The notes under the pieces: generated by a model
The model's input: only the letters and a program-made list of their open reading frames with translations
Told to the model about the DNA's origin: nothing
Database searches by the model: none
Position numbers and translations under genes: made by a program
From: Opitutia bacterium
GTDB taxonomy: Bacteria; Verrucomicrobiota; Verrucomicrobiia; Opitutales; UBA953
NCBI GenBank assembly: GCA_003569165.1
Contig: BGOI01000012.1
Location: 1 to 57,854, forward strand
Reading direction: 5' to 3'
DNA: 57,854 bases
Shown: positions 2,832 to 16,573 of the stretch, piece after piece
Layout of the letters: each line of letters begins with the position of its first letter
How positions within the stretch are numbered: position 1 is the first letter of the stretch

Positions 2832-2908
2832 GTGCCCGGGCGCCGAGCCGGCGAGCGTTCAGGCCCCAGCCGGCTTGCGGTCGGGCATGCCCGATACCCG
2901 CCATCAGG

Positions 2909-2946
2909 TTTTTCGATTAACGCCCGGTAGCGAAAACTGCTATTAT
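2909..2946 (+). promoter_or_regulatory. Promoter-like element P1 before the ATP-grasp trio
   Basis: TTTTTCGATTAAC (2909-2921) is followed after 19 bases by TATTAT (2941-2946), a good -10 box preceded by GC. The same 13-base block, with 20 bases to TATGAT, occurs at 6390-6428 before the ketosynthase gene. TTAAC could be a poor -35 box or part of an activator site. A short inverted repeat (CGC, six bases, GCG) sits just downstream of the block. The shared sequence is seen directly; promoter function is inferred. Confidence 0.55.
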
Positions 2947-3040
2947 CACGATGAGTAAAACATTGGCTCTTCCGCCTTTCCGCCGTATTAACTTATCCCA
3001 TGGCACCGTTTTCGCATAAAGCGCTGCCGCGCCTAATCTT

Positions 3041-4201
3041 TTGAAGAAGGTAATGATTTTGGGCGCACGAGCGCCCGCCTGCCTCGAGTGGGCCCGTGCC
3101 TTCGCTGGCGCCGGTTGGCACGTCACGGTCGCGGATTCGCTTTCCTGGCCCTTGGCCAGATCGAGCCGATCTGCGCATGCGTTCTTACGCCTTCCCGAGC
3201 CACGGCGTGATGTGAACGCCTGGATCAAGGCCCTCTTGAAAGCAATCCAGGCAGAGAAGATCGACTTGGTGCTGCCGACTTGTGAGGAGGTTTTTTATCT
3301 GGCGCATGGCTTGGATAAGCTCCGCGAAGTGTGCCGTGTATTCACGAGCGATTTCTCCCTGCTGAACGAGCTCCATCACAAAGGGCGCTTTCCGACGCTG
3401 ACCAAGGATTGGCCAGTCGTCGCGCCTGAAACCCGCTTGTTGGAGTCGCCGGCGGCGCTGCTAGCCTACGGTAAAAATTCCGATGAATGGGTATTCAAGC
3501 CCGCCTATTCGCGGTTCGCATCGCAGACGCTGATCCGACCAACGGCTCGAGCCCTTTCCCGCGTCGCACCCGAGCCGGGTAGGCCATGGGTCGCCCAACG
3601 CTTCATCGCGGGGAAGGAACATAGCAGCTTCAGTATCCTGGTGGGAGGTCAGCTCCGTGCCCACGCTTGTTACTATTCACGGTACCGGGCTGGTAAAGGA
3701 GCGGGGATTTATTTTGAGCCCACGGATCCGGCGCCGGTCCGGGCCATGGTCGAGCATTTCGGAAAAACAACGGGATACACCGGACAGGTCGGCTTTGACT
3801 TCATCGAGGATACCGCCGGGAAATTCCATGTCTTGGAGTGTAATCCCCGGGCGACCAGCGGCGTGCATTTCTTCGAGGGACAGGCCGAGGCCTTGATTGC
3901 CAGCCTAGGGTCGGAATCCGCCGAGCCTGTGCTGACCCCCGCCCCCGGGACGAGGATGGTGGCTCTCGCCGTGCTCCTGTTCGCGGCCCCGCGCCAAGCG
4001 TGGAAGGCCGAATTCTGGAGGGATTTCGCCCGGGCCAAGGACGTGATTCTCCGCGGCGGCGACCACGGCCCACTCACGGCCCAAGTCCTCAGCCTTACGG
4101 AAATCGGCGTGCGCGCCATCAGTCGCCGGTGCGGCCTCTTGGCCGCCTCCACGGCCGACATTGAGTGGGATGGGCAACCGCTCGAGGCGCTGGAGCCATG
4201 A
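3041..4201 (+). CDS. ATP-grasp superfamily ligase, first gene of the cluster
   Basis: A 386-residue cytoplasmic protein related to the carbamoyl-phosphate-synthase-like ATP-grasp fold. These enzymes activate a carboxylate as acyl-phosphate and join it to an amine or thiol. It has an N-terminal MILGAR pre-ATP-grasp strand, an ATP-lysine segment WVFKPAYSRF (Lys153), hinge residues WVAQRFIAGKEHS (183-195) and the metal-binding block LECNPRATSG (Glu266, Asn268, Arg270). The start is TTG at 3041, giving the common MKKVMILGA opening; ATG at 3053 is the alternative, and neither has a well-placed Shine-Dalgarno site. The stop overlaps the next start as ATGA. The substrate cannot be read from the sequence. 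The coupling suggests that the product is passed to, or made with, the next two enzymes. Confidence 0.85.
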   Translation: MKKVMILGARAPACLEWARAFAGAGWHVTVADSLSWPLARSSRSAHAFLRLPEPRRDVNAWIKALLKAIQAEKIDLVLPTCEEVFYLAHGLDKLREVCRVFTSDFSLLNELHHKGRFPTLTKDWPVVAPETRLLESPAALLAYGKNSDEWVFKPAYSRFASQTLIRPTARALSRVAPEPGRPWVAQRFIAGKEHSSFSILVGGQLRAHACYYSRYRAGKGAGIYFEPTDPAPVRAMVEHFGKTTGYTGQVGFDFIEDTAGKFHVLECNPRATSGVHFFEGQAEALIASLGSESAEPVLTPAPGTRMVALAVLLFAAPRQAWKAEFWRDFARAKDVILRGGDHGPLTAQVLSLTEIGVRAISRRCGLLAASTADIEWDGQPLEALEP

Positions 4202-5343
4202 GGCTACTTGATCCGTCCGAGCTCGGAGAGGCGTCAGCGGCCGTAGGCGATTCGCCAGCTGCTCGCTACGTTCGGAGTTGGGCGTCGAAGGGTCGCTCGC
4301 TTATCGGAAACGTCGAGACCCGCTTGCTTCTGCTGGACTCGGGTGCCCATCAGTTTCCTGTCAGCGTCAATAACGGCGAAAGCCACGGAGGTAACTGTTA
4401 CGTCGTTTCGCCTTTAGCCGCGTATGGGGCCTATGCCCAAGAGGAGGTGAACCGGATGAAGATGAGGCGTTTGAGGCTGCCGTTTTCATGGCTGGCGGGT
4501 GCCGTGACTTCGCTGTTCCGTTCCATTCAGGCCGACCGGGTGGTGTTTATCAACAATTGGCTACTCTCCACGAATCTCTACCCGGCCGCATGGAAGGGCG
4601 ACGACCTGCCTGAGATCACGCAGTTGATGCGCACCACTTATCCGCGTCACGTTTTCGCTTTTCGTTCTCTCAATTCACATTGCAATGGGCCGCTTATCGC
4701 GCGGCTGAAGGCCCTCGGCTATGTCTCGATTCCCAGCCGCCAGGTTTATATCTTCGATGGGCGAGCGGGGGATGAGGCGGCTTTTCGTACTCACCATAAT
4801 ACGCAGAGGGACGCAGCCCTGTTAGCCCGCAGTCGCTATCGGGTGCGGCGGGGGGACGAGTTGAAAGACGAGGACTTCGAAAGACTTGAGCAACTTTACA
4901 ATCTGCTCTATCTGGAAAAATATTGCCACCTGAACCCCCATTACAAAGCCGAATGGCTACAACGCGGGCACCAGGAAGGGTGGCTCCAGTTAAGGGTGCT
5001 GCAAAGTCCTGAAGGGAGGATCGATGGGGTCGTGGGCTGGTTCGCCACCGATGCCACGCTCAGCGCCCCGATTGTCGGCTACGATACGGCCCTCCCCATA
5101 AAACTCGGCTTATACCGTCAACTCACGCAGCTCTGCTTTCAAGAGGCGGCCGCTCGCCGGATTGTCCTGAACTTTAGTTCCGGCGCCCCCCAGTTTAAGC
5201 GGATGCGCGGCGGCCAGCCGCAAATCGAGGTCAGCATGGTCTATGTGAAACACTTGCCATGGAAGAACCGTATCATCTGGGGGTTGCTGGGTCTGCTCAT
5301 GCGAACAATTGCCGCCCCCGTCATGAAAGCTTTAAAAGTATGA
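4198..5343 (+). CDS. Putative GNAT-fold (FemAB-like) acyltransferase, unassigned family
   Basis: A 381-residue protein without a motif I can name with certainty. The order of segments resembles a double GNAT or FemAB fold: LGYVSIPSRQVYIFDGRAGD, then a charged helix with DFERLEQLYNLLYLEKY, then strands LQLRVLQSPEGRIDGVVGWF and a late RRIVLNFSSGAPQFKRMRGG. The last 25 residues are hydrophobic with basic ends (around WGLLGLLMRTIAAPVMKALKV), which could anchor it to a membrane. It starts in an ATGA overlap with the ATP-grasp gene and ends in one with the Rieske gene, so all three should be made in step. Aminoacyl or fatty-acyl transfer onto the ligase product is a plausible but unproven role. Confidence 0.55.
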   Translation: MRLLDPSELGEASAAVGDSPAARYVRSWASKGRSLIGNVETRLLLLDSGAHQFPVSVNNGESHGGNCYVVSPLAAYGAYAQEEVNRMKMRRLRLPFSWLAGAVTSLFRSIQADRVVFINNWLLSTNLYPAAWKGDDLPEITQLMRTTYPRHVFAFRSLNSHCNGPLIARLKALGYVSIPSRQVYIFDGRAGDEAAFRTHHNTQRDAALLARSRYRVRRGDELKDEDFERLEQLYNLLYLEKYCHLNPHYKAEWLQRGHQEGWLQLRVLQSPEGRIDGVVGWFATDATLSAPIVGYDTALPIKLGLYRQLTQLCFQEAAARRIVLNFSSGAPQFKRMRGGQPQIEVSMVYVKHLPWKNRIIWGLLGLLMRTIAAPVMKALKV

Positions 5344-6371
5344 ATCCCACACACGAATCCGACGATGGCTGGTGGCCCGTTGCCACCGCCGAGCAGCTCA
5401 AGCCAGCGCAGACTCTGGCCCGGACACTTTTTGGCGTGCCCTTGGTGCTTTTCCGTACGGCACAGGGTGCGCCGGCCGCTCTCCCGGATCGCTGTCCGCA
5501 TCGGTCGGCGCCACTGAGCCAAGGGACGGTTCGCGACGGTGAAGTGGAATGTCCCTACCATGGTTGGCGATTTGATAGCATGGGTCGTTGTACGCGCGTG
5601 CCGGGTGCCCAGCCGGCTTGTGTGTCCGGCCCGTTGCTCCCGGCTGCGAATGTCCGCGAACAAGGAGGGCTTATCTGGGTCAGCCGAGCAGGACCGCTCC
5701 CCGTGGTGGAGCCGGCAAGTCCGCAGGCTGGCCCCAACCCGCTCGACGTTTTTTTCATCACCGATGCTGCCCGCTGTTCGCTCCCAGAAGCCGCGGAGAA
5801 TTTTCTCGACGCATTCCATACACACTTCGTGCATGCCGGCTGGATTCGCAATGATCACAAGCGCCAGAAGATTCGGGCCAAAGTCGAAGCCTTGCCTGAT
5901 GGCATCCAGGCTTGTTACACGGAGGAAGGCCAGCAGTCAGGTTGGATCTCCCGTTTATTCGAAAAAGAACGCGGCTGGAGTTACGGTCGATTTCGGATGC
6001 CAGGCTTGGCGGAGATTGAGTACCGGGACAGACAGGGACGAATCAACCTGCTCATCAGCGCGTGGCTGACTCCTTCGCAGAACGGGCACATTCATATCCA
6101 CGCCCGCATCGCGTCTCGGCGAGACTGGCTGCCGCGCTTCCTGAAGGAGATTATCCTCCGCCGCGTGTTCCGTGTCATCCTGAATCAGGATAAGCGGATC
6201 CTCGAATTGACCACGGCAAACGTGGAGCGATTCAAGGCGGCGGGAGTCAGTGCCCCGCCGGCCAAGCTGCTCCATAGCCCGCTGGACTTGCTGGGCCCGC
6301 ATATCCGAAGCCTGCTCGCGGGCGAACCCTTGCCTGCACTCCCGGATACCGAAATCGAAGTGCACCTTTAG
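5340..6371 (+). CDS. Rieske non-haem iron oxygenase, alpha-subunit type
   Basis: A 343-residue oxygenase component that would hydroxylate, desaturate or demethylate a small organic substrate using O2 and electrons from a separate reductase. The 2Fe-2S ligands are complete: CPH at 52-54 and CPYH at 71-74. The catalytic iron motif ENFLDAFHTHFVH (153-165) supplies Asp157, His160 and His165, matching the classic ENxxDxxHxxxxH pattern. The start at 5340 is chosen from the ATGA overlap with the preceding gene. No ferredoxin or reductase gene lies nearby, so electrons must come from elsewhere. The chemistry is certain at class level; the substrate is unknown but probably the cluster's own intermediate. 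Confidence 0.93.
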   Translation: MNPTHESDDGWWPVATAEQLKPAQTLARTLFGVPLVLFRTAQGAPAALPDRCPHRSAPLSQGTVRDGEVECPYHGWRFDSMGRCTRVPGAQPACVSGPLLPAANVREQGGLIWVSRAGPLPVVEPASPQAGPNPLDVFFITDAARCSLPEAAENFLDAFHTHFVHAGWIRNDHKRQKIRAKVEALPDGIQACYTEEGQQSGWISRLFEKERGWSYGRFRMPGLAEIEYRDRQGRINLLISAWLTPSQNGHIHIHARIASRRDWLPRFLKEIILRRVFRVILNQDKRILELTTANVERFKAAGVSAPPAKLLHSPLDLLGPHIRSLLAGEPLPALPDTEIEVHL

Positions 6372-6389
6372 ACGATGAAACGTATCATT

Positions 6390-6428
6390 TTTTTCGATTA
6401 ACCCCTTCGGGTCAAAAAGAGCTATGAT
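6390..6428 (+). promoter_or_regulatory. Promoter-like element P2 before the ketosynthase trio
   Basis: TTTTTCGATTAAC (6390-6402) is followed after 20 bases by TATGAT (6423-6428). The block is identical to that at 2909-2921 and GCTAT is shared at the -10 box. ACCC-CTTC-GGGT just downstream of the block forms a small hairpin in the same place as the inverted repeat of P1. The ketosynthase ATG is 38 bases after the -10 box. Confidence 0.55.
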
Positions 6429-6466
6429 ACTGGCTCTGTCATCCCCTCACCCCACCCAATAACCCC

Positions 6467-7459
6467 ATGGCAATGATTGCACAGGTTGCCGCCCAGCAAC
6501 TGACCGTCCCTGAATCGATTCCTGAGTTGGCTGCCCGCGCCGGCTGGACGATCGAGGCCACTCTCGCCGCCGGCGCCGGTCACACCCGGCATCGCGCTCC
6601 CGTCGGCGTCTCGCAGATCGAACTCATCTGCGATGCCATTTCTCGGCTCGGCCTGGATCCGGCACTCGTTCGCTCGGCCCGGTGGCTGATCTGCGCCCAA
6701 GCCGTGCCTTGGCGGGCGATGCCGACCAATGCCGCCACGGTACACGCTCGTCTTGAGCTGCCGCCCTCCGTGCAGTCCTCCGATATCAACGCCAGCTGTC
6801 TCTCCTTTCTCGCCGCGCTTCAGTTGATCGGACCGAGCGTCGATGCCTCCGGTTGCCCCGCCTTGGTGGCCAGTTCGGAAGATCCGCTCATGGCCTTGGA
6901 CTGGTCCGAGCCGCACTCGGCGGCGCTGTTCGGGGCCGGGGCCGCCGCTGCCTGGGTCGTGCCGGACCGGATTCCGCAAAGGGGCGAGACGCTCTTGGCG
7001 ATCAAGACCCAGCTGATTGAGAGTCACACCGAGACATCTGAGGCCTGCGTAATCCGTGGCGGCGGTACGAAGGATCTGTTTGGAGCCGATGGCTACGGCA
7101 AATTTTCCATGAACGGTAAGGCTCTGTTCCAGGCCGCCTCACGCCATATGGACTGTTTCATCGAACGGTTCGTCTCCCTCGGTGGCGTCGAGCCTGCCTG
7201 CGCGGATTGGGTTGTCGCCCATCAGGCAAGCCGCGAGGCTATCGAACTCATGCGCCGCAGGCTGAAAATCTCGCCTGACCGCATGCCGGTTCGTTTCGAG
7301 GAGTTCGGCAACCAGGTCTCAGCTTCGATTCCCGAGGGACTGGCTTCCCTCTGTCGTTCAGGACAACTCCGGCACGGTGACCGTATCTTGGTCTTGGGCA
7401 CGGGGGCCGGATTGCTCATCGGCGCCACCGAGCTCGCCGTCGTGTCCGCGAAAACATGA
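6467..7459 (+). CDS. FabH-like ketoacyl-ACP synthase III (thiolase fold)
   Basis: A 330-residue condensing enzyme. The catalytic triad sits at nearly the spacing of E. coli FabH: Cys111 in INASCLSF, His252 in VVAHQAS and Asn282 in FGNQVSASIP. The last motif is unusual, since FabH normally has GNTSAASIP. The N-terminal third is short and diverges from primary-metabolism FabH (MAMIAQVAAQQLTVPESIPEL), which favours a dedicated biosynthetic role. It starts with ATG at 6467 behind its own promoter element and ends in an ATGA overlap with the reductase gene. It could extend an acyl-thioester with malonyl-ACP, transfer an acyl group, or join two acyl chains as OleA does. No acyl carrier protein is encoded alongside. 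Confidence 0.88.
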   Translation: MAMIAQVAAQQLTVPESIPELAARAGWTIEATLAAGAGHTRHRAPVGVSQIELICDAISRLGLDPALVRSARWLICAQAVPWRAMPTNAATVHARLELPPSVQSSDINASCLSFLAALQLIGPSVDASGCPALVASSEDPLMALDWSEPHSAALFGAGAAAAWVVPDRIPQRGETLLAIKTQLIESHTETSEACVIRGGGTKDLFGADGYGKFSMNGKALFQAASRHMDCFIERFVSLGGVEPACADWVVAHQASREAIELMRRRLKISPDRMPVRFEEFGNQVSASIPEGLASLCRSGQLRHGDRILVLGTGAGLLIGATELAVVSAKT

Positions 7460-8487
7460 AAATACTGGTGCGAGGCGGAACCGGCTTCGTCGGCCGGCAC
7501 GTGGTCTGGCGCTCGCTGCTTTCCGGATACGACACGGTTTTCACGGGTCGCAGTCCAGAAGCGGCCGCGCTCGTGATGGAGATGGCCCGCCGCGTCTCGC
7601 CGGACCGTCTGCCGGTCTTCCACCTGGAAGGGCATCCCCTCGGTGAGCCGTTCGATGTCGTCATTGATTGCGCCGGTAAAGTCGACCTGGTCGGCTCGCG
7701 GGCGGATTATATCGCGGCGAACGTCGATCGGACTGCGACCGCCTGGGCCCATGCGCGCGAACGCGGGGCCCACACGTTCGTCTCCGTTTCCTCCGCTTCG
7801 GTCTTGTTCGCTTGCCGCGATCAGCTCGGACTGACCGACGGAGTTCCGGCCACGCCTCCGGGCATCCACCCGTACGCGGACTCCAAGGCGTTAAGCGAGA
7901 CGATGCTCTGGGCGCGACGAGGCCAAGGGCCGGCGATTCGTATCATCCGGCCACGGGGTGTCTACGGGCCTTACGACTCCGGGGTGCTTCCACGTATCTT
8001 GAAGGTCGCCCGTCGGTTAGGCGGGAGATTTCCGTTACCAGCTCCCGGGGCTTTGGCCTCGATGACCGCTGCATCGAATCTCGCCCATGCTGTGCTGCTG
8101 GCCGCCGAGGCGCCCGCCTCCGTGGGCGATGGCATCTGGAACGTCTCCGATGGGGATGACCGTCCCTTAGGTGAGCTCATCCAGCTCGCCGGGCAGGCGG
8201 CTGGTCAAGAACTCCGGCCGTTCCATCTCCCCGGCAGCCTGCTGAGGGGAATCGGCCGAGCGGGGGATTTCATCTGCCGGCCCCTGCGGGTCGAGCCTCG
8301 CGTCAGCCTTTATACCGCCGAACTCCTCTGCCGCAGCCGGACGCTTTGCATCGACGCCATTCGGCGGGATCTCGGCTACGCGCCGCTCCTTTCCGTCGAG
8401 AAAGCCTTCGCCTCTTTGGCGGAGTTCACCCAGCATGGCACCTTGCCCGAACTTTCCATCATGCGGCCCAAAGGAGGCACCCGATGA
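7456..8487 (+). CDS. NAD(P)-dependent extended SDR (epimerase / 3-beta-HSD type)
   Basis: A 343-residue extended short-chain dehydrogenase. The Rossmann motif GGTGFVG lies at residues 7-13. The catalytic set is Ser112/Ser113 in VSVSSAS, with Tyr140 and Lys144 in YADSK. RPRGVYGP follows as in epimerases and 3-beta-hydroxysteroid dehydrogenase-like reductases. Coupled directly behind a ketosynthase (ATGA overlap), the simplest role is reduction of the beta-keto product, as OleD does after OleA. Sugar epimerase activity is less likely because no nucleotide-sugar genes are near. Its own stop overlaps the next start. Confidence 0.87.
   Translation: MKILVRGGTGFVGRHVVWRSLLSGYDTVFTGRSPEAAALVMEMARRVSPDRLPVFHLEGHPLGEPFDVVIDCAGKVDLVGSRADYIAANVDRTATAWAHARERGAHTFVSVSSASVLFACRDQLGLTDGVPATPPGIHPYADSKALSETMLWARRGQGPAIRIIRPRGVYGPYDSGVLPRILKVARRLGGRFPLPAPGALASMTAASNLAHAVLLAAEAPASVGDGIWNVSDGDDRPLGELIQLAGQAAGQELRPFHLPGSLLRGIGRAGDFICRPLRVEPRVSLYTAELLCRSRTLCIDAIRRDLGYAPLLSVEKAFASLAEFTQHGTLPELSIMRPKGGTR
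8471..8477 (+). promoter_or_regulatory. Strong ribosome binding site fixing the MBL start
   Basis: AAGGAGG lies inside the end of the reductase gene, six bases before the ATG at 8484. It is one of the few canonical Shine-Dalgarno sequences in the window and rules out a longer reading of the hydrolase. Confidence 0.8.
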
Positions 8488-9416
8488 GTCTCGCGCCCGG
8501 CCGCGAGGCCTTGGACGTCAGTTGGGATTTTGAATGGTGGAATACCGGATCCTTCGAGGCCCGCGGCTTCTTCTCACACCTGCAGGCCGGTTGGGCTAAG
8601 ACCGAACATCGCGCCCATGTCGGATTGCTCCAGCTGCCCGGACGAAGCGTGCTCTTCGATGTCGGTTACGCCCCGCGGTTCCATGACTGCGCCGCGCCGC
8701 GCTTAGCCTCGATTTATCGCTGGGCCACGCCCGCCACGATTCCACCTGGTAGTTCCGTGCGCGAACGGCTCGCGGGCCGTAAGGTCGATCAGCTGCTACT
8801 TTCGCATTGGCATGCGGATCACACGGGTGGATTGCTCGATATTCCGGAGGCCACGGTCTGGCGGCCGTTTTCTTCGCATGAGGCGGTCCGGCAAGAAGCC
8901 CTTTCCGCATGGGCCCCGCTCAAGGGTATCTTGGCTGGCCAATTTCCCGCAGATCTCCCCGGCCGGCCGGACGAGCCTTTTTCCGCGCGACTTCGCGATG
9001 TGGATTCCGCGCCCCTCATGGCCTTACCCGTGGAGCGCTGGCCATTTCTCGCCGAACTGGACGGTCGTTGCCGTGATATCTTCAGCGACGGGTCGCTGGC
9101 GGCGGTCGATCTTCCCGGTCACGCCCTCGGTCATTACGGCGCCTTGTTCCAGACCCAACTGGCCGGCCGGCCGGTGCTCGTGTTGCTCTGTGGCGATGCG
9201 GTCTGGGATGAGCGAGAACTGACCGCGGGTTGGACGCGCGGCCCGGCGGCGCTGTTCGGATTCTATTCCCTGAGAGCAGCATCGGAAACTACCCGGCTGC
9301 TCCGTCGCTTATGCTCGGCTGCCAAGGCCTGCGGTATGGAGCGTGACCTTTATGTGCTACCGACGCACTGCCGATTGGCGGCGACCCGATTCGTCGCCGC
9401 CGGCGGGCGCGAGTGA
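8484..9416 (+). CDS. Metallo-beta-lactamase-fold hydrolase, last gene of the cluster
   Basis: A 310-residue metal-dependent hydrolase. The zinc motif HWHADH gives His108, His110, Asp112 and His113. His213 (LPGHALGH) and Asp238 (LLCGDAVWD) complete a two-metal site, and a late PTHC supplies the usual last histidine. The overall pattern resembles lactonases and thioesterases of the superfamily rather than beta-lactamases or RNases. No signal peptide is present, so it acts in the cytoplasm. In a cluster with a ketosynthase and reductase it may hydrolyse a thioester or lactone to release the product. The start is fixed by the AAGGAGG site and the ATGA overlap. The substrate is inferred only from context. 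Confidence 0.88.
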   Translation: MSLAPGREALDVSWDFEWWNTGSFEARGFFSHLQAGWAKTEHRAHVGLLQLPGRSVLFDVGYAPRFHDCAAPRLASIYRWATPATIPPGSSVRERLAGRKVDQLLLSHWHADHTGGLLDIPEATVWRPFSSHEAVRQEALSAWAPLKGILAGQFPADLPGRPDEPFSARLRDVDSAPLMALPVERWPFLAELDGRCRDIFSDGSLAAVDLPGHALGHYGALFQTQLAGRPVLVLLCGDAVWDERELTAGWTRGPAALFGFYSLRAASETTRLLRRLCSAAKACGMERDLYVLPTHCRLAATRFVAAGGRE

Positions 9417-9504
9417 CCGCCGGCTGCAAGTGTGTCCATAGGCCATTCTTTCCAGGTTTCAGGTTGGGTTCGACAGGGGGCGGCGTGGGCTTTGTATCAA
9501 CGGT

Positions 9505-10973: not shown

Positions 10974-12358
10974 GTGCCGACTGCCCCCGCAGATGCTTCG
11001 TCCGCCCAGGACGTCCTCGATGCCGCCGACCGGCGCTTCGGGTGGCACCCGTTTACCCAGATGCGGGAGTATCAGGACAACCCTCGTCTGCACTTGGTCC
11101 GCGGCGAGGGCAGCTGGCTGATCGACGGGGAAGGGAAGCGCTACCTGGACGGTAATGCGTCGGTCTGGACGAACGTCCACGGCCATAACGACCCCGACCT
11201 GAACCGCGCCCTGCGCGAGCAGTTGGACAAAGTCGCCCACGTGACAATTCTGGCCTGAATCATCCGATCGCGACGGAGCTCGCCGAAGATCTCGCGGGTC
11301 TGACGAACGGCGCGCTCCCGCGCTGCTTCTACACCGACAACGGCAGTAACGCCGTGGAAGTCGCCCTGAAACTTTCGTTCCAGTATTGGCAACTCGTCGG
11401 CCAGGAAGCCAAGCGCGGGTCATCTCGATGGAAGGCGCCTACCACGGCGATACCTTCGGCACGATGGCCGTCGGCGAACGCTCCGAGTTCCATCGTCGCT
11501 TCAATCCCTGGCTCTTCGCCGCCCAGACTTTCCCCGCCCCGGTCCATTCCGAGTGCGCTGGTAAGGTTGGCCTATCCGATGCCTCCGCTTCGCTGGCCGC
11601 GCTGAAAGTTATTCTCGAGCGCGATGCCGCCACGACGGCCTGCCTGATCCTCGAGCCCCGCGTGCAGGGCGCCGCCGGCATGGTCCAGCAGCCAGCGGGA
11701 TTCGTGAAAGCCGTCGCCGCCCTCTGTCGTCAATACGACGTGCACCTGATTCTCGACGAGGTCTTCACGGGCTTCGGTCGTGTGGGTGCGCTCACGGCCG
11801 CCGAGACCGAAGGCGTCGTCCGGATTTCCTCTGCCTCGCGAAAGGCCTCGCCGCCGGCTACCTGCCACTGGCCGCCACGCTGACGTCCGAAAAAATTTAC
11901 GAGGCCTTCTCGGTCCGTTCTCCGAAGGGAAGACCTTCTTCCACGGCCACACCTTCTCGGGCAATCCGCTCGGCTGCGCGGTCGCCCGCGCTTCGCTCCG
12001 AAAGCTCAAGCCGATGCTGGCCTCGGGCCAGGTCGCCGAACGGGCCTCGCTGCTCGGTCATGAGATGGAAGCCGCCTTCACCGGTCACGCCCACGTGCGC
12101 ACTTTCCGTCAGCTGGGCCTCACAGGCTCCGTTGAATTCAAGCCCGCCTCTGTCGATTGCTGGCCGACCGATACCCGTGCGGGTTATCGCGTCGCCTTGG
12201 CCGCGCGCCGCCACGGCCTCGTCATCCGTCCCCTCGGTGACTCGATCCTCTTTGTCCCGCCCATTTCCATCCAGGCCGACGAAGTGAAGCACCTCGTCCG
12301 CGCCGTCCGCCTCGCCATGGACGACACCCTTTCATCTCTCCCCACCGCCACCCGCTAA
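10974..12358 (+). CDS. bioA: Adenosylmethionine-8-amino-7-oxononanoate aminotransferase, frame-broken
   Basis: A PLP enzyme that converts KAPA to DAPA in biotin synthesis using S-adenosylmethionine as amino donor. The recognisable order is [64 protein letters not shown], the PLP-lysine block [36 protein letters not shown] and a normal C-terminus ending at 12358. Four frame breaks (about 11255, 11415, 11825 and 11907) each restore the family sequence if one base is added, three of them in short G or C runs. The start is GTG at 10974. First gene of the operon, directly after the BirA site. I judge it functional with sequencing deletions. Confidence 0.9.
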
Positions 12359-12384
12359 CCTTCGCCCCCGCTTTCCAGTATTTT

Positions 12385-12421
12385 CCCAACCGCCAACCGC
12401 TTACCGCCAACCGCTAAAACC
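12385..12421. repeat. ACCGCYA heptad repeat, copy 2
   Basis: Four tandem heptads (ACCGCCA, ACCGCTT, ACCGCCA, ACCGCTA) between bioA and bioB, preceded by TTTTCCCA. This is the longest run of the family here, and it sits nine bases before the bioB start codon. Confidence 0.7.
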
Positions 12422-12429
12422 TTCTATAT

Positions 12430-13496
12430 ATGCCCAACCTCACCGAAGCCCGAGCGCTCTACGACCTGCCGCTCAACACGCTGATCTTCAGGCTCAGCAA
12501 GTCCACCAGGCCAATCAGGATCCGGCTGGAGTGCAGCTCTGCACGCTGAAGTCGATCAAGACGGGCGCCTGCCCGAAGACTGTGCCTATTGCCCGCAGTC
12601 GATCCACAACCAGACCGGCCTCGAGACCGAAGCCCTGATGGAGACCCAGGCGATCCTCGCCGACGCCCGTAAGGCCAAGGCCGGTGGCGCGACCCGCTTC
12701 TGCATGGGCGCCGCCTGGCGCCGCGTGAACGACGGCAAGCAGTTCGACAGCGTGCTGAACACAGTCTCGGGCGTGAAGGAGCTCGGCCTCGAAGTGTGCT
12801 GCACCTCGGGATGGTCAGCGAAGCGCAGGCTGGCCGCCTCAAGCAGGCCGGTTGCGACGTGTATAATCACAACCTCGACCCTCCCGCGAGCACTACTCGA
12901 AGATCATCACGACCCGTACCTACGACGACCGTCTCCAGACGCTCTCGAACGTCCGCAAGGCCGGCCTCGAAGTCTGCTCCGGCGGCATCCTCGGCATGGG
13001 CGAGACGGTCGACGACCGCATGAAGATGCTTGTCGAGCTCGCGCAGCTTGACCCTCAGCCCGACTCCGTGCCGATCAACGCGCTCGTGGCCGTCGAAGGC
13101 ACGCCGCTCGCGGGCCGTAAGTTCGTCGATACGATCGAGTTCGTCCGCACGATTGCCGTCGCCCGTATCCTGATGCCGAAAGCGATGGTTCGCCTCTCCG
13201 CTGGCCGTGCCAATATGAACGACGAGACGCAGGCCCTCTGCTACCTCGCCGGCGCCAATTCGATCTTCCTCGGTGAGAAGCTCCTCACGACGGGTAACCC
13301 GGACATCGAAGAGGACATGAACCTGATGAAGCGCCTTGGCCTGCACCCGATGCACCCGGATGAAGCCCGTCGCATCCACCGAGGCGATCTCGCCCCGGCG
13401 GACGCCAAGCCGGCCGAATGGCCAAACGTGGCGGAATTCGCCGCGGCCAACGCAACGGAAGAATCCTGCGGCAACGGTGGTTGCGGCTGCAAATAA
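12430..13496 (+). CDS. bioB: Biotin synthase, frame-broken
   Basis: A radical SAM enzyme that inserts sulfur into dethiobiotin. The cluster-binding CPEDCAYC motif is recovered only by adding one G in the CCGAAG at about 12572. Further blocks are [90 protein letters not shown] and a Cys-rich tail CGNGGCGCK. The reading frame steps back by one base at four places before about 12900 and is then clean to 13496. All residues expected of a working enzyme are present, so the breaks look like sequence errors. It is one base pair from bioD and 71 bases after bioA. Confidence 0.92.
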
Positions 13497-13497
13497 C

Positions 13498-14124
13498 ATG
13501 GCTCTCATCTTCGTCACCGGTAGCGACACCGGCGTGGGCAAGACCCACGTCGCCGGCCTGCTCGCGCGTCGCCTTGCACGCGACGGTTTCACGCAGGTCA
13601 TCAAGCCGGTGGAGTCGGGCGCGGGCGCCGGTCGTCCGGCTGATGCCAAGAAGGCCGCGGGCAAGTGGGCTGAAGCGCATACGCTGCTGACGCTCCCGGC
13701 CCCCATCGCCCCGCTCGCCGCGGCGAAGAAGGCCCGCAAGCCACTCGATCTCGCGCTGCTCCTGAAACTCTACCGTGCCGTCCCGCAGGCGCCGTGTCGC
13801 GTCGTCGAAGGCGCTGGCGGTGTGGCCGTGCCGATTGACCCCAAGGGTAAGGATTGGGCGGACTTCGCCGCGGCCATCAAGCCGACCGTCGCCATCGTGG
13901 TTGTCGAAGATCGCCTCGGTGCAATCAATCAGGCGCGTCTCGCGATTTCTTACCTACGTCGCCGTTACGACGGACCCATCGGCGTCTGGCTCAACGCGAT
14001 CAAGAAGCCCTCGAAGGAAGTCGCTGCCGCGAATCGCGCCGGCCTGGCCGAGTCTTGGATCCCGCTGCTTGGTGAATCGGGCAAAGGCGAAAAGTCTGCC
14101 CGCTTCCATTTCCTGCCGCGGTGA
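13498..14124 (+). CDS. bioD: Dethiobiotin synthetase
   Basis: A 208-residue ATP-dependent carboxylase that closes the ureido ring of dethiobiotin from DAPA and CO2. The P-loop GSDTGVGKT is at residues 8-16, followed by a KPVESG block that contacts substrate and by RVVEGAGGVAVP. It starts two bases after the bioB stop, and its end overlaps the GTG start of bioF. This gene is unbroken, in contrast to its neighbours. Confidence 0.95.
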   Translation: MALIFVTGSDTGVGKTHVAGLLARRLARDGFTQVIKPVESGAGAGRPADAKKAAGKWAEAHTLLTLPAPIAPLAAAKKARKPLDLALLLKLYRAVPQAPCRVVEGAGGVAVPIDPKGKDWADFAAAIKPTVAIVVVEDRLGAINQARLAISYLRRRYDGPIGVWLNAIKKPSKEVAAANRAGLAESWIPLLGESGKGEKSARFHFLPR

Positions 14125-15263
14125 ACGAAGCCCTGCTGCAGCGCCTGCGTCAGTCCCTCGCCCAGCGCGAAGGGTCGTCGCTGCGCCGTAAGCTGACCGC
14201 CCGCGCTTCGGCCGACACCCGCATCAATCTCGCCGATAACGATTACCTCGGCCTCGCGCGCGACCCCGCGGTCGTCGCCGCCGGCGTGGCTGCGCTCCAG
14301 GAATGGGGTGCATCTTCGTCCGCTTCGCCGCTGGTCACCGGTTACACCGAGATTCACCAGAACTCGAGCACACTCTCGCCGCTTGGCAGGGTATGAGCAT
14401 GGCCTCGTAATGAACACCGGCTTCTCGGCCAACTCCGCCGTCCTCGGTGGCCTGCCGAAGAAGGGGGACCTCATCCTCGCCGACCGACTCGTCCACGCGA
14501 GTATGCTCGACGGCATCATCGCCTCGGGCGCGCGCCTGCGTCGCTTCGCCCATAATGACCTCGATGCGCTCGAGCTCATGCTGCACGAGGAGCCCGCCTT
14601 GGATGGCGTTATCTTCGTCGTCACGGAAAGCGTCTATTCGATGGACGGTGATAGCCCCGACCTGAAGCGCCTGGCTTCGCTGCGGAAGCGCTTCGGCTTC
14701 TGCTGGGTACTCGACGAAGCCCACGCCACGGGCTGGTATGGCGCCACCGGTTCCGGACTGCAGGAAGAGCAGGGTGCTTTCGCCGCCGCGGACATCGTGG
14801 TCGGCACGCTTGGCAAAGGCCTCGGCTCGCAGGGCGCTTATGTGCTCTCGCACGCGCCAGAAGTCCGCGACGCCCTGATTAACTTTGCGGGCGAGTTCGT
14901 CTACTCGACCTACCTCGCCCCTTCCTGTGCCGCCGCCGCCCTCGCGGCGGTCGAACGCGTGAAGGGGATGTCGGGCGAGCGAGCTGAACTCCACGCGCTC
15001 TCCCACGCCTGGCGCGACGGGCTCTTGGAAGCCGGCTTCGCGGTGCCGTCAGGGGACTCGCCGATCATTCCGCTCATCTTGGGCGACTCCGACGTCACCC
15101 TAAAATACGCCACGGCTCTCCGTGCCGTTGGCTTCATGGTCTCCGCCATCCGTCCGCCACGGTGCCCGTGCGTACCGGACGTATCCGCATCTCGCTCCGC
15201 CGGGGCCTTTCTCCCGCCGTGTTGTCCTCCTTTGTCGCCGCCTTGAAGGGCGTCTCCGCATGA
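14121..15263 (+). CDS. bioF: 8-amino-7-oxononanoate synthase, frame-broken
   Basis: A PLP enzyme that condenses pimeloyl-ACP with alanine. The recognisable order is NLADNDYLGLARDP, SSSASPLVTGYTEIHQ, then after one lost G (about 14361) ELEHTLAAWQGYEHGLVMNTGFSAN, FVVTESVYSMDGD, WVLDEAHATGWYG and the PLP-lysine block VGTLGKGLGSQGAYV. A second break at about 15160 restores TVPVRTGRIRISL and a C-terminus ending at the TGA at 15261-15263, which overlaps the next ATG. The start is GTG, overlapping the end of bioD by four bases. Confidence 0.92.
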
Positions 15264-15864
15264 AGATCGGCTGGATCGGCGGATGGGGCGTCTCGCTTGA
15301 GGAGATGAAGGCCATTGCCGTGGCGCACGCGCCCGACGCCGAGCACCTGATCTACCCGCCCGTCATGGGCGCGGCGGAGAACCTTTCCGGCTGCGACGCC
15401 GTCATCGCGTGGTCCCTCGGTGCGCACCTCGTCCTCGAGGCCGGCGCCCGCGGTGTGCAGTTCCCCTCCAAGGTGCTGCTCTTCGCCCCGTTCACGTCCT
15501 TCTGCTCCGAGCACGGCAAGTGCGGGAAGCATTCCGAGACCCAGGTGAAGTGGCTGCGTCGCTGGATCGATACCGACGCCCTGGCGGCCTTGGCCGATTT
15601 CCGGAAGCGAGCTGGCCTGGCTCCGCTGGCCGCGACGCCTTGCCCTACGAGAAGGAATACTTGCAGGCCGGGCTCGATATCCTGGCCCAGCCCGCGGGCA
15701 TCTCACTGATCACCTTCGGACGTCAGGGCCTCAGTCCCGGCTGGGAAGCCTATGTCGGCGACCAGGATGCGCTCCTGGATGCCTCGGGCGTTTGCCAAGC
15801 CATCGACGGTTGTCATATTATAGAAGGACTCGGGCACGACCTGCGCGAGTTCCTCGCCCCCTAA
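15260..15864 (+). CDS. BioH/BioG-like pimeloyl-ACP methyl ester esterase, frame-broken
   Basis: A small alpha/beta hydrolase of about 200 residues inside the biotin operon, between bioF and bioC. It opens MKIGWIGGWGVSLEEM, has the nucleophile elbow AWSLGAH, an acid region VGDQDALLD and the catalytic His in GLGHDLREFL. One lost base at about 15600-15635 separates the two halves. Position and fold match enzymes that remove the methyl ester placed by BioC, freeing pimeloyl-ACP for BioF. I cannot tell whether it belongs to BioH, BioG or a separate lineage. The stop lies four bases before the bioC start. Confidence 0.8.
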
Positions 15865-15868
15865 TCCC

Positions 15869-16573
15869 ATGCGTTTCGAAGAACGAGCTGAGAGCTACGG
15901 TGCGCACGCCGCGCCGCAGAAGCGCTTCGCCGAAGCGTTGGCCGCCTTCGCGCCTTTCCGCCGCGGCGTCCGCGTCACCGAACTCGGCGCCGGCACGGGC
16001 TTCCTTACTTCCGCGTTGTTGGCCCAAGGCGTGAACGTCGACGCCACCGATGCTTCGCCTGCGATGGTCGAGCTCGGCCGTCAGGCTGTGCCCGCTGCGA
16101 ATTGGTCGGTGCATAATGCCTTTGGTCCCATCGAGAAAGCCGGCGCACTCGCTTCGACCGGCCTGCTGCATTGGGCGGCTGATCCCGCCGCGGTGTTGCG
16201 TCATTGGCGTGCGGCGTTGCCGGCTGGCGGACGACTGCTCCTTGGCGTCCCATGCGATCCTTGCCTGAACGAACTGCGCGACCTCATCGGCGAAGGACCC
16301 GTGCGCTGGCGCGATGAGCCTCAGTGGCTCGCCTTGCTCAAGGCCGCGAACTTCGACGTCCATGCGCATGGCGTGCTCGAGTCCGAAGAGATTTACCCGA
16401 GTGCCTTGGATTTCCTGCGAAACCTGCATCGCAGCGGCGTGACCGGCGACCCGCGTCTCTCGCCGACCGAGCTCAAGTCGCTCATCCGCGATTATGACCG
16501 CCTCAATGCGCGCCCTGACGGCGTCGTCGCTACTTGGGCTTGGTTGTTGGTGGATGCGACCGCGCGGGGCTGA
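15869..16573 (+). CDS. bioC: Malonyl-ACP O-methyltransferase
   Basis: A 234-residue SAM methyltransferase that caps malonyl-ACP so that fatty acid synthesis can build the pimeloyl chain. It opens with the typical RFEERAESYGAHAAPQKRFAE, has the SAM motif ELGAGTGFLT (38-47) and a conserved LLHWAADPAAVLRHWRAALPAGG segment. It is the last gene of the biotin operon, immediately downstream of the esterase that would undo its reaction. The frame is clean. Confidence 0.92.
   Translation: MRFEERAESYGAHAAPQKRFAEALAAFAPFRRGVRVTELGAGTGFLTSALLAQGVNVDATDASPAMVELGRQAVPAANWSVHNAFGPIEKAGALASTGLLHWAADPAAVLRHWRAALPAGGRLLLGVPCDPCLNELRDLIGEGPVRWRDEPQWLALLKAANFDVHAHGVLESEEIYPSALDFLRNLHRSGVTGDPRLSPTELKSLIRDYDRLNARPDGVVATWAWLLVDATARG

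Follow-up and report, generated by a model that had tools for sequence, protein, structure and literature searches.

A six-gene island of an Opitutia bacterium as a rewired variant of a widespread two-module gene cluster

Contig BGOI01000012.1 of the Opitutia bacterium assembly GCA_003569165.1 (57,854 nt, here called the window, whose positions are used throughout) carries six genes, at 3041-9416, for an ATP-grasp ligase, a tandem-GNAT transferase, a Rieske oxygenase, a FabH-like ketosynthase (KS), a short-chain dehydrogenase/reductase (SDR) and a metallo-beta-lactamase-fold (MBL) hydrolase. The set is a rewired variant of a widespread cluster family, for which no paper was found in a literature search of open-licence papers, a description elsewhere being possible. 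Tentatively, the island may be read as carrying a lipid/amino-acid pathway of two modules. The features are:

2838..9452, no strand: genomic island, its ends placed to within about 5 bases; site empty in three genus-mates
3041..4201, + strand: module A ATP-grasp ligase, PRK06849-like, with predicted PylC/L-amino-acid-ligase fold; TTG start
4198..5343, + strand: module A tandem-GNAT transferase with predicted FemX/MprF/Sbb17-like fold (AlphaFold, Foldseek, relatives' Pfam matches)
5340..6371, + strand: module A Rieske non-haem iron oxygenase (PF00355, VanA_C, intact ligands)
6467..7459, + strand: module B FabH-like KS, divergent (ACP_syn_III/_C, PRK07204)
7456..8487, + strand: module B extended SDR, divergent (nearest NCBIfam model OleD)
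8484..9416, + strand: module B MBL-fold hydrolase (PF00753, intact metal ligands)

The six open reading frames (ORFs) are free of stops and are arranged as two trios, module A and then module B, with four ATGA overlaps in the sequence (4198-4201, 5340-5343, 7456-7459 and 8484-8487). An earlier reading of the window, made from its letters alone (the sequence-only reading), had given the same ORFs, coordinates and overlaps, and all are borne out by an ORF check and by the sequence. Five of the proteins can be named by Pfam or NCBIfam, the exception being the GNAT-like protein. Genes for a carrier, an exporter or a regulator are absent from the island, as that reading had also stated. Pfam and NCBIfam searches found no non-ribosomal peptide synthetase (NRPS), modular polyketide synthase (PKS) or carrier-protein domains in the six proteins, and an NRPS/PKS cluster was rejected on this ground.

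In three genus-mates (G423, G003 and G008), a match to window positions 1-2836/2841 is directly joined to a match from 9452/9455 on, defining an island of 6.6 kb that contains the six genes together with the sequence upstream of each module. The ATP-grasp gene is present in two of 55 genomes of the genus, own genome included; the second (G457) is probably the same metagenome-assembled genome (MAG) from Lake Pavin that appears below as locus L037, whose contig begins inside the ATP-grasp gene and runs downstream into the same bio region as in the window. GNAT matches (E ≤ 0.001) occur in six of 387 genomes of the phylum, own genome included, and one of the six is weak. The empty site in the three genus-mates and the presence of the ATP-grasp gene in only two of 55 genomes make it well supported that the six genes are one unit of inheritance. 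The island was probably gained horizontally, the donor side resting on the trees considered below. Inspection of the junction sequences by eye showed no signs of a mobile element, for which no formal search was made.

The cluster family was surveyed with a five-sequence GNAT alignment against 84,980 species genomes, giving 476 candidate stretches, of which 350 were confirmed and the best 80 kept; these loci (L-numbers, with L040 from Pseudomonas protegens) were then scanned with hidden Markov models built from the window and four plasmid loci. All six families occur together at one locus in 46 of the best 80, a share that is not a genome-wide rate because these are the loci nearest to the GNAT query. 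In 41 of the 46 full loci, all six genes lie on one strand within 11 kb, and a fusion of ATP-grasp and GNAT in one reading frame at L038 raises the full-locus count to 47. The 46 loci belong to Pseudomonadota (39), Bacillota (5), Verrucomicrobiota (1) and Acidobacteriota (1). With six families at one locus this often, and usually on one strand within 11 kb, their co-location exceeds chance. The sequence-only reading had proposed a dedicated six-gene pathway that conserved synteny across genera would support, and the synteny extends across genera and phyla; the gene set is not unique but common.

An F390-synthetase-like adenylating enzyme (TIGR02304, here the F390 enzyme) is carried by 43 of the 46 full loci. 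The window's own genome (2.03 Mb, 86.6% complete) has no TIGR02304 match at E ≤ 10, and none of seven further genomes with linked, F390-less loci has a match over the cut-off (three have weak matches, 52-91 bits), so the F390-less form exists outside the genus; clusters without the F390 enzyme, other than that of the window, occur at L100, L102, L033 and L036. The earlier statement that no adenylating enzyme is included thus holds for the window but describes an exception in the family.

No module B gene at all lies at the locus in 16 of the 80, some of these on short contigs. Twelve of these 16 genomes, with all or some of module A standing alone, were tested, and nine of the 12 have TIGR02304 over the cut-off, against one of 14 control genomes. 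KS, SDR and MBL genes lie together elsewhere in eight of the 12 (L154, L155, L157, L158, L159, L160, L174 and L175); L177 has the KS gene, the F390 enzyme and a partial MBL gene at a contig end, L176 has the F390 enzyme alone within the retrieved stretch, and in G451 and G453 a profile search did not find TIGR02304 and no region was retrieved. The KS-SDR-MBL core also occurs without module A elsewhere, in Paracoccus and Ketogulonicigenium (KS-SDR-MBL-F390, adjoining sulfotransferase and TetR genes) and on Pseudomonas plasmids, where L144 has no detected F390 enzyme; in Pontibacillus, the KS-SDR-MBL-F390 core is accompanied by ATP-grasp. A DUF3419 gene (PF11899) adjoins the GNAT gene in L022 and L023, relatives of the order Opitutales, precedes it in Rhizobium and Shinella, and forms a seventh gene right after MBL in the Lake Pavin relative (L037:6354-7457, 198 bits); none was found in the window's own genome. 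We take the DUF3419 family to include the 3-amino-3-carboxypropyl transferase BtaA. Four Shewanella loci (L083, L105, L106 and L113) have one or two further GNAT-family genes downstream of the cluster, which suggests repeated transfer steps.

The ATP-grasp protein scores 391.2 bits with PRK06849, narrowly under the cut-off of 406; among its relatives, that of L040 passes (453.8 bits) and that of L097 fails (335.8). The top Foldseek match of its AlphaFold model (predicted local distance difference test, pLDDT, 95.3) is PylC (E 2e-17), then PurK, L-amino-acid ligases and GAR synthetase, with PurK, GAR synthetase and carboxylases matching nearly as well as PylC. A possible 14-codon leader ORF, predicted by translation (3000..3044, + strand), ends in a TGA that shares bases with the TTG at which the ATP-grasp gene starts. 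No sequence-level relative in the PDB was found for the ATP-grasp, GNAT or MBL proteins. The GNAT-like protein itself has no Pfam match, and 15 of 51 members of its family match Acetyltransf_6 (PF13480). Its AlphaFold model (pLDDT 93.6) is matched best by a Staphylococcus epidermidis protein of unknown function, then by Sbb17, Sba18, L-PGS/MprF and FemX and, lower, by NMT and GLYAT; the template-modelling (TM) scores for Sbb17 (0.52/0.66) and FemX (0.53/0.59) place it within the tandem-GNAT fold. This fold is shared with the aminoacyl-tRNA-dependent transferases FemX, MprF and Sbb17, though identity to the listed matches of this type is 8-16%. Because the predicted fold is FemX/MprF-like, aminoacyl transfer would be as likely as acyl transfer, and of the earlier designation as a GNAT-like acyl transferase, the GNAT kinship stands while acyl transfer as the sole role does not. 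The Rieske protein matches PF00355 (80.6 bits) and VanA_C (47.7 bits), its nearest PDB sequence is SxtT (E 1.3e-25), and C52/H54/C71/H74 and D157/H160/H165 are intact, with D284 or D316 as the candidate iron-ligand Asp.

The module B proteins are recognizable but divergent. The KS matches ACP_syn_III_C (78 bits) and scores 150.3 bits with PRK07204 against a cut-off of 402, which is not sharp for the family since L065 passes (403.7) and L040 (383.1) and L139 (333.4) do not. The SDR matches Epimerase (61.5 bits), 3Beta_HSD (52.4) and the OleD model (95.1, cut-off 580), and the MBL protein matches Lactamase_B (PF00753, 40.7 bits). As the sequence-only reading had noted, the catalytic residues are intact in the KS (C111/H252/N282), the SDR (Y140/K144), the MBL protein (HxHxDH and the other metal ligands) and the Rieske protein, on a residue check; the roles of all these residues are presumed from the families to which the proteins belong. 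Identity to L040 is 63, 58 and 56% for ATP-grasp, GNAT and Rieske, and 29, 34 and 30% for KS, SDR and MBL; for the control pair L065-L040, the values for the six proteins, listed in this same sequence, are 56, 58, 53, 66, 62 and 63%. Among sites with at least 95% conservation across the loci, the window departs from the consensus nowhere in module A, and does so in the KS at Q83R and D157A, in the SDR at T6R, H71D, W79V, E128D, D202S, T284S and G317A, and in the MBL protein at two sites (alignment numbers 45 and 54). The KS and SDR changes are common to the window and L037 only, and at both MBL sites L037 carries other letters, likewise off consensus. The module B sites changed in the window are at consensus in other F390-less loci, so loss of the F390 enzyme alone does not explain the distance of module B. 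All six genes are under purifying selection: the ratio of nonsynonymous to synonymous change (dN/dS) between the window and L037 is 0.125 for ATP-grasp (1119 shared bases), 0.224 for GNAT, 0.110 for Rieske, 0.127 for KS, 0.077 for SDR and 0.201 for MBL. The MBL protein has five matches at E ≤ 1e-10, its own included, among 387 genomes of the phylum, and the best of the others has 37-40% identity.

A short promoter-like element precedes each module:

2911..2946, + strand: before module A (TTTCGATTAAC ... GCTATTAT), genome-wide pattern match
6392..6428, + strand: before module B (TTTCGATTAAC ... GCTATGAT), genome-wide pattern match; conserved in L037

The pattern TTTCGATTAAC-N-GCTATNAT matches exactly twice in the 2.03-Mb genome, once per module, and the reversed control pattern not at all; as the pattern was defined from these two sites, the count speaks for specificity, not significance. 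With one mismatch or none, the 11-mer has two matches in the window alone against 0.34 expected, and three of 100 shuffles reach two. Over some 110 bases upstream of each module the likeness is modest, one of 2850 window segments scoring equally high, and the claim is therefore limited to the short element. The same predicted element before both modules would argue for their co-regulation.

Three known arrangements help to place the window. The uncharacterised cluster KS-SDR-MBL-F390-ATPgrasp-GNAT-Rieske of Pseudomonas, Thiothrix, Cupriavidus, Shewanella, Legionella and others contains the same six families, but in the window the modules are in reverse order, the F390 enzyme is missing and module B is only 29-34% identical. 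A seven-gene Escherichia coli cluster, KS-SDR-MBL-F390-PAP2-sterol desaturase-acyl-CoA desaturase (L139 and L147), has the KS-SDR-MBL order of the window but lipid-type tailoring genes in place of ATP-grasp, GNAT and Rieske, which it lacks. It is flanked by narI and the tyrT/purU side, and 671 of 5426 E. coli genomes cover 80% or more of it, among them Nissle 1917 and ATCC 25922, two strains that are accessible in the laboratory; the literature search found no paper on it. The Ole pathway comprises the thiolase OleA, the hydrolase OleB, the ligase OleC and the reductase OleD. The window resembles it in having a condensing enzyme, an OleD-like SDR and a hydrolase, to which most relatives add an adenylating enzyme; unlike Ole, the hydrolase is of the MBL fold and not the alpha/beta fold of OleB, there is no OleC-type ligase, and head-group genes are added. 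Membership of the Ole pathway was rejected, the window KS and SDR lying under the Ole-type cut-offs. The ATP-grasp/Rieske operons described in PMC2922099 are of another kind.

From these features we infer the reaction steps, substrates, lipid nature and product of the pathway as follows. In module B, the tail module, the KS would condense two acyl units to a beta-keto thioester, reduction by the OleD-like SDR would give the beta-hydroxy form, and hydrolysis of a thioester or lactone by the MBL enzyme would release a free acid. In most relatives the F390 enzyme would reactivate the free acid; in the window lineage this enzyme would have been lost, and the ATP-grasp enzyme may take the acid directly. 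In module A, the head module, the PylC-like ATP-grasp enzyme would activate a carboxylate and join it to an amine, the FemX/MprF-like tandem-GNAT would move either an aminoacyl or an acyl group, and hydroxylation or desaturation would fall to the Rieske enzyme. Module B may also have changed its substrate in the window lineage. The tail is likely to be lipid-like because the SDR is nearest to OleD and because the E. coli core lies beside PAP2, sterol-desaturase-family and acyl-CoA desaturase genes; the head is likely to be amino-acid-like because of the PylC/L-amino-acid-ligase and FemX/MprF/Sbb17 folds and because of the DUF3419 genes beside GNAT or after MBL. The chemical order given in the sequence-only reading is plausible. 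More broadly, and with slightly less confidence than for the window itself, the family may be one of head-and-tail lipid pathways, in which an Ole-like tail (KS-SDR-MBL, usually with an F390-type ligase) is combined with exchangeable heads (ATP-grasp/GNAT/Rieske, DUF3419/GNAT, PAP2/desaturases, possibly a sulfotransferase), the tail of the window having been replaced or remade and working without the adenylating enzyme.

Several points weigh against this lipid/amino-acid pathway. If the MBL enzyme frees the chain, a lineage that has lost the adenylating enzyme would have no means to reactivate it unless ATP-grasp does so. TM-scores to FemX and PylC are only moderate (0.5-0.6), enzymes that depend on acyl-CoA can have tandem-GNAT folds too (NMT and GLYAT being two of the matches), and the KS and SDR score far below what the models of their nearest families require. 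TIGR02304 does not reach its cut-off in three of the 12 unlinked genomes, and in the planctomycete loci L079, L084 and L089 neither MBL nor the F390 enzyme was detected, so that these two steps cannot be universal. For all six enzymes, substrate, product and activity are predicted ones.

Close behind the lipid/amino-acid pathway comes the rather less probable reading that the product is no lipid but a small diffusible signal or antibiotic. The KS would make a short beta-keto unit for reduction by the SDR, the MBL enzyme would serve in lactonase-type tailoring or self-protection, ATP-grasp and GNAT would build an acylated dipeptide and the Rieske enzyme would oxidize it. The likeness of the ATP-grasp fold to dipeptide ligases (L-amino-acid ligases) and of the GNAT fold to Sbb17, an aminoacyl-tRNA-dependent peptide synthase of the streptothricin type, would suit such a small secreted metabolite, as would SxtT as the nearest PDB sequence of the Rieske enzyme. 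The MBL protein is weakly similar to lactonases of N-acyl-homoserine lactones (AttM, 32 bits) but falls far under the lactonase cut-off of 390 bits, the island has no exporter or regulator, and the E. coli relatives combine the same core with lipid-modifying genes.

The origin of the divergent module B is evenly balanced. There is about an even chance that it is the donor cluster's own module, which diverged after loss of the adenylating enzyme, by runaway change or through a new function, and was not replaced from another lineage. Trees made by a quick method, the KS tree carrying a long-branch-attraction warning, put the window and L037 in a seven-row set with five proteobacterial rows for ATP-grasp (support 98, stem 0.34 changes per site) and in a twelve-row set for Rieske (support 99, stem 0.52). 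The corresponding stems are 2.8 for KS, 3.3 for SDR and 2.6 for MBL, which would require a very strong burst of change, and other F390-less loci show no such change. However, approximately unbiased (AU) tests do not reject trees that join the window and L037 to the gamma/beta-proteobacterial clade (p for SDR 0.56, KS 0.26, MBL 0.56), so both replacement and rapid divergence stand, and replacement was given up as the preferred choice. Also in favour of divergence, P. protegens has the best SDR match (38%) among 398 Pseudomonadota genomes searched at E ≤ 1e-35, and none closer was found in 392 Planctomycetota genomes at the same threshold; as both searches scored at most five candidates per genome, a closer SDR may have been missed. 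A decaying cluster, left as a non-functional remnant by loss of the adenylating enzyme, is very improbable. It would fit the lack of TIGR02304 in the genome, the absence of the DUF3419 gene that the Lake Pavin relative has, and the altered near-invariant sites of module B. Against it, the genes are without stops, the catalytic residues are intact, the promoter-like element is kept in the window species and L037, and F390-less clusters occur at the four other loci named above; decay was rejected on the dN/dS values of 0.08-0.22 against L037.

If the lipid/amino-acid pathway is correct, families that are now scattered and annotated as hypothetical (PRK06849, PRK07204, TIGR02304 and an unnamed tandem-GNAT) would belong to one pathway family with exchangeable parts. 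The core of this family would be present in about one-eighth of complete E. coli genomes, and its product could therefore be found by simple deletions in such strains. The window would be a natural experiment in which the same head module works with a remade tail and without the adenylating enzyme, on a unit that is mobile between close relatives.

The sequence adjoining the island (10974-16573) holds what we take to be a biotin-type cluster (bioA/B/D/F and a methyltransferase-like gene), judging by its ORFs. The bioA/bioB-like genes (10974-13496), and a metH-like gene at 100-1652, seem to be split over several frames, by real breaks or assembly errors; the bioA-like gene of L037 is a single long frame, unlike the split version of the window.

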